A stretch of 11,231 bases of DNA, taken from the NCBI RefSeq assembly GCF_000186865.1, contig NW_008705575.1, positions 476,630-487,860 on the forward strand, written 5' to 3'. A model generated the notes under the pieces. The model searched no databases and was not told the DNA's origin. It saw nothing but the letters and a program-made list of their open reading frames with translations. The stretch comes from Aureococcus anophagefferens. Lineage: Eukaryota > Sar > Pelagophyceae > Pelagomonadales > Pelagomonadaceae. A program made the translations under genes and the position numbers. Positions 4,910 through 7,907 of this stretch are shown in pieces; the stretch's first letter is position 1, and every line of letters starts with the position of its first letter.

Positions 4910-6169
4910 ATGGCGCTCCGCAATCTTTGCACACTCACCGCGACCGCGGCGGCTTTCACGACGCCGACGCCGCAGCACGCCACCACCGCCCTGCGGTCGA
5001 CCTACCAAGGCGGGCCGGCCGCGGACTACCTCGAGGTCGAGCGGCGCGAGGTCGAGCGCGCGGCGCAGACGGCCGTGGACGCGCTCCGGTCCAACGGCGC
5101 CCCCCTCGACCCGGCGACGGAGGAGGCCGCGTGGGAGGCCGCGTGGATCGCCGCGTCCGTCGCGAACGTCGAGCGGCTCAAGATCAAGCAGGACGCGGCG
5201 GCCCGCGTCGCCGACCGCGTTCCCGCCTACGTGCCGCCGCTCGGCGGCCGCGTCGCCGGCGCCGTCGACGAGTTCGTGGCGGACAAGCCCGCGTACGCGG
5301 AGGCCGCGACGTCGTCCGCGCCGTCCTGGCTCGGCGCGCAGGCGGCGCCCGAGCCGGCCCCCGAGGACGTGTTCCGCGGCTACGCGCCGGACCCGCGGGG
5401 CCCCGTCGTCGCCGACCGCCGGGCGGGCGCCGAGACGTTCCGCGACGCGGACCCGTGGATGCGTCGCGACGCAAGACCCCCGCGCTTCGCGACGCCCCGG
5501 GACCCTCACGCCTACGGCGGCGGGATGCCGAATCCCATCGTACCCGGCGGCTACGCGCGCGACCCGCGGGATCCGCGCGAGCGAGGCGCGTACCCGGAGG
5601 ACCCGCGGGATCCGCGCTTCGAGGCGCCGCCCGGCGGCGACGTCCGCGGCTACGGCCAGGACCCGCGGGACATGCGCGGGCCCGGCGGCTACCAGCAGGA
5701 CCCGCGGGAGATGCGCGGGCCCGGCGGCTACGGCCAGGACCCGCGGGAGATGCGCGGGCCCGGCGGCTACGGCCAGGACCCGCGGGACATGCGCGGGCCC
5801 GGCGGCTACCAGCAGGACCCGCGGGACATGCGCGGGCCCGGCGGCTACGGGCGGCAGGACCCGCGGAATCCGCGCTTCGCTCCGGAGAACGTCCGCAGCT
5901 ACTCGCCCGACCCGCGGGACGAGCCCATGGGCGGGCTCGGCAACTTGCCGCAAGACCCGCGGGATCCGCGCTACCTGCGCCCGCGCGACCTCCGGACCTA
6001 CGACTCCTCCGCCGCCTACGGCGGCGCGCCGCGCCAGCGCTCCATGTGGGGCAACTCGGTCGTCCCGAGGAACGAACCCAAAGCCGCCGCCGGGCGGGCG
6101 AGCAACGAGAAGTTCCGCGACGAGGACCCGTCGGTCAGATCGGGCGCACGGCGCCGCGTGCGCCGGTGA
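4910..6169 (+). CDS. Plastid paralog B: presequence-bearing protein with 13-residue D-P-R repeats
   Basis: A protein of 419 residues; ATG 4910 has a good context (A at -3, G at +4). Residues 1-15 form a hydrophobic signal peptide ending T-A-A-A, then F16-T-T-P-T-P-Q and an S/T/R-rich transit-like stretch almost identical in plan to paralog A. The helical block at 45-90 (E-V-E-R-A-A-Q-T-A-V, E-E-A-A-W-E-A-A) is the homologous core. From 155 on the protein is low-complexity: 14 D-P-R tripeptides between 161 and 354, including five tandem 13-mers at 247-311 (G-Y-x-Q-D-P-R-[D/E]-M-R-G-P-G). F-R-D-x-D-P motifs at 177 and 402 match F-R-D-D-P of paralog A, and D-P-R-D-P-R-[F/Y] matches its D-P-W-D-S-R-F. 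The tail is strongly basic (A-R-R-R-V-R-R). Probably disordered and multivalent; function unknown. Secretion or cell-covering localisation is the main alternative to the plastid. Confidence 0.75.
   Translation: MALRNLCTLTATAAAFTTPTPQHATTALRSTYQGGPAADYLEVERREVERAAQTAVDALRSNGAPLDPATEEAAWEAAWIAASVANVERLKIKQDAAARVADRVPAYVPPLGGRVAGAVDEFVADKPAYAEAATSSAPSWLGAQAAPEPAPEDVFRGYAPDPRGPVVADRRAGAETFRDADPWMRRDARPPRFATPRDPHAYGGGMPNPIVPGGYARDPRDPRERGAYPEDPRDPRFEAPPGGDVRGYGQDPRDMRGPGGYQQDPREMRGPGGYGQDPREMRGPGGYGQDPRDMRGPGGYQQDPRDMRGPGGYGRQDPRNPRFAPENVRSYSPDPRDEPMGGLGNLPQDPRDPRYLRPRDLRTYDSSAAYGGAPRQRSMWGNSVVPRNEPKAAAGRASNEKFRDEDPSVRSGARRRVRR
5648..5842 (+). repeat. 39-bp coding minisatellite, five copies
   Basis: Five in-frame tandem units of exactly 39 bp start at 5648, 5687, 5726, 5765 and 5804. 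Each encodes Gly-Tyr-[Gly/Gln]-Gln-Asp-Pro-Arg-[Asp/Glu]-Met-Arg-Gly-Pro-Gly. Units differ at two codon positions only (GGC-CAG versus CAG-CAG; GAC versus GAG), giving the order GQ-D, QQ-E, GQ-E, GQ-D, QQ-D. A sixth, diverged unit with one extra codon follows. Such perfect units suggest recent expansion by slippage or unequal crossing-over, and copy number may vary between strains. Confidence 0.9.
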
Positions 6170-6395: not shown

Positions 6396-7907
6396 TTAAT
6401 CCGCGCACCGCACGCACCCCGTCCGCACGAAGACCTCGTGGAAGGTCGGCGCGCCCTGGGCCCTGAAGGACGGCGCGAAGCGGGGCTCGTCGCACGCGCA
6501 GCGCCGGTCGCCGCAGTCCAGCGGCGCGAGGCCCGCCCGGAGGAGCGCCGGCCGCACCTCCGCGACCCAGTTCCGGTTCGAGGGCTGGTCCCACTCGACG
6601 CAGACCCAGGACGCGCGGTCCAGCAGCTCGGGGAAGTCGCGGACGACGTCCACGAAGGCGCCCTCGCAGTCCGCGAGGACCGCGTCGAACGGGCCGCCCG
6701 CGAGCCGCCTGTGTGGAAACCAAATCTTCAACCCGACTTCAATGTTAGCGTATGCGAACGTTTCGACGCAATCTCTTTGGCTGTGTCTCGAGAACTCGAG
6801 GAGAGGAATCGATTCGTCCAAAAATCAGCCGAATCGATTTCGATTTGACCGAGATAGAGAGGTTTGAAGTTTGGTCAGGACCCCCTGAACCAGTGGTTGG
6901 TTTCCACACTGCGAGCCGCTCGAGGGCCGCGAGGTCGTGGTACGCGTCGACGACGTCGCCCAGCACCATGGTCGTCGGCTGGCGCGACCGGCCCAGGAAG
7001 CCCTGGACGGTCGTGAAGCGGCCCAGCCGCGCCGCGAGGTGGTACTCGGGGAAGAATCGGCCTGGGCACAAGAGTTATTCAACGTCGCTTCAACGTGAGT
7101 GTTCCGCGCGCGCGCGTTACGGAAAACACATCCACGCTTCGAGACCGTTCCGAGAGATGATCGCTCGTCCAAAAATCAGCCGAAACGAGTGGAAAATGGC
7201 CGAGATCGGAGCCTTTGAAGTTGGGAATTTCGCTCTCTTGTGCTGCCCTGGAATCGGCTTCCCGGATCGACGACGACCTGGCGCGTCGGGTCGTCGAGGA
7301 GCGCGTCGGCGACCATGCACGTCGCGCCGAAGCCGGCGCCGATGGTCAGTAACCGCGCGCTCCGCGGGAGCAGCAGCGACAGGCGCTGCTCGCAGAGCTC
7401 CTCGTTGCACGCGAAGCCCCGCGCCCGCAGCGCCGCCCTCACGCGCCCGAAGTCGTCGTCCGTCGACTCGAGGAACGCCGCGCGCGCCAGCGCCCGCGGC
7501 GTGCACCGCGCGGCGATGGTCTCCGGGCCCGCGACGCGCAGGAGCTCCGCGAGCTGCGGATCCGGCGGCGGCGCCGCGGGCTCCGGCGCGAGGCGCCGGC
7601 GGCGGACGGCCGGCGCCGGCGCGGCCGCGGGCGCCGGCGCGGGCGCGGGCGCCGGCGCGGCGCCGCCGACGACGACGACGACCTCGCCCTCGGCGACCTG
7701 GGGACCCAGGGGCGCGTCGAGGCGCAGCGGCGCGCCGCCCTTGCGCTCGAGGCCCGTGGCCGGCACGGGCGACGCCTTGTTGTAGGCCTCGAGAGCCTTG
7801 CGGGCCGTCGTCTTCGCGCCGACCTGCAGCTTCAGCGCCCGGCCGTCGAGCGACGCGAGCACGACCGCCTTCTTCGCCGGGGGCTGCATCTCACAGGGGA
7901 CCTCCAT
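6396..7907 (-). CDS. FkbM-like SAM-dependent methyltransferase, three exons split by two introners
   Basis: Exons 7907-7259, 7061-6920 and 6708-6396 (649, 142 and 313 nt; sum 1104, 367 residues, stop TAA). Splicing at the introner borders (phase 1 in Ser217, phase 2 in Glu264) joins three different frames into one sensible protein. Residues 12-81 may be a beta-grasp/ubiquitin-like domain (A-V-V-L-A-S-L-D-G-R-A-L-K-L-Q-V). An Ala-Pro linker (82-100) and R-R-R-R follow. The methyltransferase part spans about 165-360: motif I L-L-T-I-G-A-G-F-G-A-T (186-196), end of strand 2 V-V-V-D-P (211-215), F-D-A-V-L-A-D-C-E-G-A-F (271-282), corresponding to the D-x-E-G-A-E signature of FkbM-type enzymes, then V-C-V-E-W-D (299-304) and F-H-E-V-F-V (353-358). 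Substrate unknown. ATG 7907 has G at -3 and +4. The family call is moderate; the exon structure is firmer. Confidence 0.7.
6709..6919 (-). mobile_element. Introner 2: transposon-derived GC-AG intron (211 bp)
   Basis: The element occupies 6709-6911. Its ends form a terminal inverted repeat of 15 bp with one mismatch (CAGTGTGGAAACCAA at the 5' end; the 3' end is the complement of CTGTGTGGAAACCAA). It is flanked by a perfect 8-bp target-site duplication, GCGGCTCG on the gene strand (6912-6919 and 6701-6708). Removing the element plus one duplicate restores G-A-G C-G-G C-T-C, giving E-R-L-A-G-G-P across the junction. The intron thus starts with GC, taken from the duplicated target, and ends with the element's own CAG. 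A GT two bases inside the element would put exon 3 out of frame. It shares an exact 20-mer with introner 1. Confidence 0.9.
7062..7258 (-). mobile_element. Introner 1: transposon-derived GC-AG intron (197 bp)
   Basis: The element occupies 7062-7250. Its ends pair as CAGGGCAGCACAAGAG and the complement of CTGGGCACAAGAG, that is 12 of 13 positions plus a 3-nt bulge. It is flanked by a perfect 8-bp target-site duplication, GCCGATTC on the gene strand (7251-7258 and 7054-7061). Exact removal gives D-P-G-S-R-F-F-P-E-Y-H across the junction. The donor is GC from the duplicated target and the acceptor is the element's CAG. No GT donor nearby keeps the frame. The interior matches introner 2 at a constant offset of 351 bp from about 7078 to 7225, including the identical 20-mer TTCGGCTGATTTTTGGACGA (minus strand; 7165-7184 and 6814-6833). 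Confidence 0.9.

Follow-up and report, generated by a model that had tools for sequence, protein, structure and literature searches.

The two introns of a three-exon gene in Aureococcus anophagefferens are very probably non-autonomous DNA transposons, that is, MITE-like introners with co-opted GC or GT donors. The gene lies in a stretch of 11,231 nt (C15:476630-487860), here called the window, and copies of its introns were sought in a genome of 49.05 Mb in 86 contigs. In the proposed mechanism, a transposase acting in trans would insert the element into an exon, and repair of the insertion would duplicate 8 bp of the target. On the RNA, the terminal CAG of the element would serve as the 3′ splice site, the branch point would presumably come from the element as well, and the 5′ splice site would be whatever GC or GT opens the duplication. 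Removal of the first duplication copy together with the element would then restore the original message. Insertions that lack a leading GY (GC or GT) on the gene strand could not be removed in this way and would mostly be lost by selection. GC would be admissible and GT favored about 3-fold, which, with coding GC four times commoner, would leave about half of the introns as GC-AG.

The host gene and its two introns

The host gene occupies 6396..7907 on the minus strand, with its start ATG at 7907 and its stop codon at 6396-6398, and encodes 367 amino acids when spliced. The initial annotation labeled it FkbM-like. That label is not upheld by Pfam, where the product matches Methyltransf_24 only, with an E-value of 0.024 that falls short of the Pfam cut-off, and the similarity is best described as weakly methyltransferase-like. 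Intron 1 (7062..7258, 197 nt, phase 1) is made up of a family B introner and one copy of its target duplication, and intron 2 (6709..6919, 211 nt, phase 2) likewise of a family A introner and one copy of its own; both are GC-AG introns on the minus strand. Exact removal of both yields a 367-codon frame and a spliced CDS of 1,104 nt, stop counted. The frame ends after 243 codons if the gene is unspliced or if intron 2 alone is removed, and after 321 codons if intron 1 alone is removed.

Each intron is flanked by an exact 8-bp target duplication, whose first copy lies within the intron and contributes its leading GC as the donor, while the second copy is exonic. The two identical copies of GCCGATTC at intron 1 lie at 7251..7258 and 7054..7061, and those of GCGGCTCG at intron 2 lie at 6912..6919 and 6701..6708, all on the minus strand. 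The elements themselves span 7062..7250 (family B, 189 bp where 192 is typical) and 6709..6911 (family A, 203 bp) on the same strand, and their terminal CAG is the acceptor in both introns. Each element reads CAG at its start and its end on the gene strand, which leaves the second base of the termini unpaired. The family A element has a perfect 13-bp inverted repeat, with arms at 6711-6723 and 6897-6909, each two bases inside the element end. The inverted repeat of intron 1 is imperfect, and the right end of this element lacks 3 nt that are present in the 192-bp form of its family. The initial annotation had described the exact duplications, the donor and acceptor arrangement, and the frame restored by exact excision, and on all of these it is confirmed at the sequence level. 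It also noted that both introns begin and end in inverted repeats, of which that of intron 1 is the imperfect one.

Elsewhere in the window, two repeats were noted by eye. Short tandem-like GGATCGC/CGGATCGCTCC runs lie between genes at 2811-2950, and a coding tandem repeat (DPR / MRGPGGYGQ-like units) lies at 5640-5870 in a plus-strand frame that runs from near 4911.

Copies of the element in the genome

An 18-mer core is common to both introns (6815..6832 in intron 2 and 7166..7183 in intron 1, minus strand) and occurs 2,205 times in the 49-Mb genome (1,119 + 1,086), against 0 for its reversed control. The two window elements are 75% identical over a middle block of 61 nt but have different ends, and they are therefore treated as subfamilies A and B of one element. 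Family A is mostly 203 bp long, with commonest ends CTGTGTGG..., and family B is mostly 192 bp long and terminates in GGGCAG. Assignment to either family is by interior sequence, and some family A copies have TGCCG ends.

The sample from contig C1 comprises 94 of the 100 core places listed (30 loci and 64 places within 60 stretches, with the last six left out). Filters on flanks and duplicate contexts, with at most 2 core mismatches allowed, gave 95 C1 places, 91 of them with the exact core. Eight extra loci favor the subfamilies found in the window, and counts for C1 alone are given alongside those for all loci. A duplication, defined as 8 bp with up to 2 mismatches, is present at 83 of the 95 C1 core places and is perfect in 68 of these 83; none was found at the other 12, which were dropped, as were 15 of the 83 that lack a clear gene strand. 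Over all loci, a coding strand could be called from the flanks of 79 of the 96 duplication-bearing copies. The element thus presents the features of introners: many near-identical introns in different genes, a constant 8-bp duplication, and terminal inverted repeats.

Some copies depart from the common forms. In L011, L026, L028, L045, L077, L089, and L094, the left and right ends resemble different subfamilies and look as though they were swapped by recombination or conversion; the existence of such copies implies that perfect arm pairing is not needed for persistence. L036 (237 bp) and L031 (147 bp) are of unusual length, and both retain the duplication, GY, and CAG.

The core also has two exact matches in a viral collection, L105 and L106. 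A duplication was found at neither of them, and their similarity to the compared elements extends over at most 25 bp at 96% for L105 and 35 bp at 71% for L106. The ORFs of L105 resemble phage tail genes by eye. Given the missing duplications and the short similarity, viral carriage of the element was rejected and both matches are taken as chance.

Among the copies compared, the nearest relative of intron 1 is 98.9% identical and that of intron 2 is 96.6% identical. These rather young copies, together with the perfect duplications, fit the recent insertion that the initial annotation proposed. L103, a paralogous open frame of the same genome with 26% identity, aligns free of stops across both intron sites, and L104, also of the same genome with 37% identity, does so across the second site, both identities being scored without composition correction. 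In L103, 22 additional residues lie two to three positions ahead of the second site. Because the paralogues are this weak and L103 has these extra residues, the empty sites are seen roughly and at the protein level.

Splice borders, frame, and donor choice

The strand test removes the element and one duplication and scores the coding strand from the flanks, with no splice sites assumed. Its codon model was trained on six window frames (2,771 codons), which are not independently verified genes. Flanking codon usage made the gene strand callable in 68 of the 83 C1 copies. On that strand, the donor is GC in 36, GT in 31, and GG in 1, and the acceptor is CAG in 67 and CCG in 1; the sole GG/CCG exception, L033, is spliceable in neither orientation. 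With a stricter strand margin over all loci, GY and AG are found in 53/53, against 18/53 and 13/53 on the opposite strand. At zero margin, with ambiguous strands included, GY is found in 87/93 and AG in 90/93.

The reading frame agrees with these borders. When the left and right flanks are scored separately, exact excision leaves their best frames in register in 75 of 83 copies and in 50 of the 51 with clear flanks. On the strand chosen in this frame test, 48 of these 50 read GY...AG and 2 do not. If the element were retained, 6 of 83 copies would preserve the frame. Intron phases 0, 1, and 2 occur 30, 14, and 24 times in the 68 C1 copies, an order that, judged without a formal test, is the one expected from GY positions within codons. 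Across the genomic copies, then, the acceptor lies in the element, the donor lies in the duplication, and exact excision is in frame, which bears out, at the sequence level, the proposed introner logic of one splice site carried and one co-opted (GY 67/68, CAG 67/68, frame 50/51).

Introns formed in both orientations relative to the core among the 79 called copies of all loci, with counts of 22 versus 19 in family A and 25 versus 13 in family B. Family A works both ways because its commonest form, CTG...CAG (33/51 copies), reads CAG outward at either end. The chief forms of family B, CAG...CAG (23/45) and CTG...CTG (14/45), each offer an acceptor at one end only. In the family A copies of C1, the second base differs from the CTG form on the donor side in 10/33 and on the acceptor side in 0/33 (Fisher p 0.0009). 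Protection of the acceptor by splicing would be expected to produce this contrast, and small subfamilies, that of intron 2 among them, may have inherited some of the donor-side change. The donor-side end of family B reads CAG in 31/38 called copies, in both sub-forms, where a perfect inverted repeat would give CTG, and the remaining ends are CGG (5), CTG (1), and CCG (1). This CAG may be an ancestral terminus or may have a role in splicing.

Other readings of these data were weighed. Two ordinary old GC-AG introns, flanked by repeats that are coincidental or derive from intron sliding or tandem duplication, could have the same phases (1 and 2) and lengths near 200, both of which are ordinary. 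However, the core has about two thousand copies elsewhere, the ends are inverted repeats, and 8-bp duplications recur at 83 of 95 sampled places, so the copies leave that explanation a negligible probability. Barely more credible is the view that the copies are solo MITEs in non-expressed or broken genes and are never spliced. Splicing is predicted here from DNA, which this view has in its favor, but elements that are never spliced would not yield GY and CAG on the codon-defined strand in 67/68 copies or frame agreement in 50/51. The GY at the start of the duplication might instead reflect a target preference of the transposase and not splicing. In favor of this, copies that lack a clear gene strand fit as well, and 95 of 96 duplication-bearing copies read GY and AG on one strand or both. 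Yet GY stands at the gene-strand donor end in 33/33 family A and 34/35 family B copies of C1 regardless of element orientation, whereas the last two duplication bases, read in reverse on the opposite strand, are GY in just 8/33 and 14/35, with a chance GY frequency of 0.20 in flanking exons. A transposase acting on near-identical ends would be blind to the gene strand. Target preference was rejected as the origin of GY on this strand asymmetry, and it is given a very low probability.

The initial annotation also suggested that the element has specialized on GC-AG splicing, choosing or tolerating GC donors alone, as both window introns start with GC. Donors were tabulated genome-wide, as that annotation had itself proposed, by counting the family B start pattern CAGGGCAGSAMAAG and taking as donor the dinucleotide eight bases upstream. 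The pattern occurs 1,202 times (its reversed control once), and the donor is GC in 619, GT in 533, and neither in 50. In coding sequence, GC/(GC+GT) is 0.790 in the window frames and 0.792 in the C1 copy flanks (about 4:1), whereas GC makes up 0.54 of the family B GY donors. Set against this fourfold excess in coding sequence, the near-even donor counts mean that GC is under-represented among them, and a specialist would instead show donor GC clearly above the coding supply. Relative to background, GT is over-represented 3.2 to 3.3-fold over GC, and for each available site the dinucleotides other than GC and GT occur about 60 times less often than GC. The subfamily of intron 2 offers a point for specialization, with GC in 5 of its 9 starts (CAGTGTGGAAACCAAC), GT in 2, and neither in 2. 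On called strands over all loci, family A has GT 22 and GC 19 (n=41) and family B has GC 23, GT 14, and GG 1 (n=38), so both donors are abundant. GC specialization is thus refuted for family B as a whole and highly improbable overall; the nine starts of the intron 2 subfamily are too few to bear out a tiny GC-only subfamily. At a GC share of 0.54, a gene with two such introns would have GC donors in both with a probability of about 0.29 (0.54 squared).

The element is instead a GY user within a GC-rich genome. The donor dinucleotide is set by what the target offers, which makes the family a countable natural experiment in which relative success can be read from more than a thousand insertions. 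For family B, GT:GC:other stand at about 3.2 : 1 : 0.016 when scaled to the sites available. This suggests that a high GC-AG share can arise from base composition alone.

Beyond these two bases, the donor holds little information. In a sample of 100 GC and 100 GT duplications (the first listed of the family B starts), each of the positions +3 to +8 lies less than 0.1 bit from the coding background, which derives from the six window frames and not from independently verified genes. GTRAG occurs in 0/100 GT donors. Small departures in the donor logo, at +3, +6, +7, and +8 for GC and at +5 and +7 for GT, are weak (uncorrected p 0.004 to 0.025). An exon-side AG consensus was not found, with A at -2 in 19/79 and G at -1 in 21/79, counts that were not tested against background. 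The donor therefore seems to need little more than GY, which means that donor recognition is either very relaxed in the host or aided by the element.

In the predicted minimum-energy folds of both introns, made with no shuffle control, the intron ends pair with each other to form a terminal stem, which starts 10 to 15 nt in from the donor and stops 2 to 4 nt short of the acceptor. If splicing is efficient, the 5′ splice site might be positioned by an element-borne cue, such as the terminal hairpin or a U1-like site, an idea that is given a rather low probability. A candidate U1-like landing site in family B is CAGGGCAG at +9, which resembles the consensus CAGGUAAG. A search for U1 snRNA with RF00003 gave no match, and its positive controls were silent as well. 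Such a cue, if real, would make the element a portable cassette able to specify a donor at a set distance within foreign sequence, and the case makes testable how a spliceosome finds a two-base donor.

Relation to known systems

The hAT superfamily is characterized by an 8-bp duplication and the terminus YARNG, and hAT-like targets follow the palindrome nTnnnnAn. The elements described here share the 8-bp duplication, and ends that read CAGTG or CAGGG fit YARNG. The acceptor-side end differs, as it reads CTG inward in 78/79 called copies; YARNG thus does not stand at both ends. The donor-side ends of family B read CAG in 31/38. There is no clear sign of an nTnnnnAn target, with A at position 7 in 13/79 against an A frequency of 0.128 in the training text, a comparison made with no test. 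A genome search for hAT transposase (PF05699 and PF14291) found no match, with positive controls silent as well. PF12762 (DDE_Tnp_IS1595, Merlin/IS1595) was likewise not found in a single six-frame search that ignored introns and whose control matched in 1 of 14 genomes.

Introner elements of Aureococcus anophagefferens and Micromonas pusilla were reportedly described in Nature by Huff, Zilberman and Roy in 2016. By every sequence-level feature tested, the window introns belong with the introners attributed to A. anophagefferens. Those introners (Huff, Zilberman and Roy 2016) are given as about 210 bp long in an excerpt of PMC9481584, and excerpts of PMC10228655, PMC9481584, and PMC7789003 present them as transposon-like, with inverted-repeat ends, constant-length direct repeats, and co-opted splice sites. 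The copies described here likewise have inverted-repeat ends, constant duplications, co-opted splice sites, and both orientations. The high GC of the genome, the length of the introners, and the 8-bp duplications are in keeping with a pelagophyte such as Aureococcus. Insertion in both orientations was already reported by Huff et al. 2016, according to an excerpt of PMC10228655, so two-way insertion is not new. The A. anophagefferens splice motifs are called canonical in the excerpted part of PMC7789003, whereas about half of the family B donors here are GC. No statement on GC donors of Aureococcus introners was found in the portions of the open-licence literature that were available.

The introner elements of Amoebophrya, as excerpted from PMC7789003, have inverted repeats, direct repeats that overlap the intron borders, and relaxed donors, all of which recur in the elements here. 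They differ in that their direct repeats are 3-5 nt long and their splice motifs are far more varied.

A 175-genome survey, in the part available from PMC9860276, gives an Aureococcus sp. example in which both splice sites are carried and 12 bp are added, whereas the elements here add no bases after excision. The same part reports GC donors at 0 to 50.0% per introner family, and the GC share of family B, 619/1,202 (51.5%, by another counting method), stands near the top of that range. It further describes families in which the 3′ site is carried and the duplication provides the 5′ site, and the elements here resemble these in their duplications, their inverted repeats, their carried 3′ site, and a 5′ site that would be drawn from the duplication.
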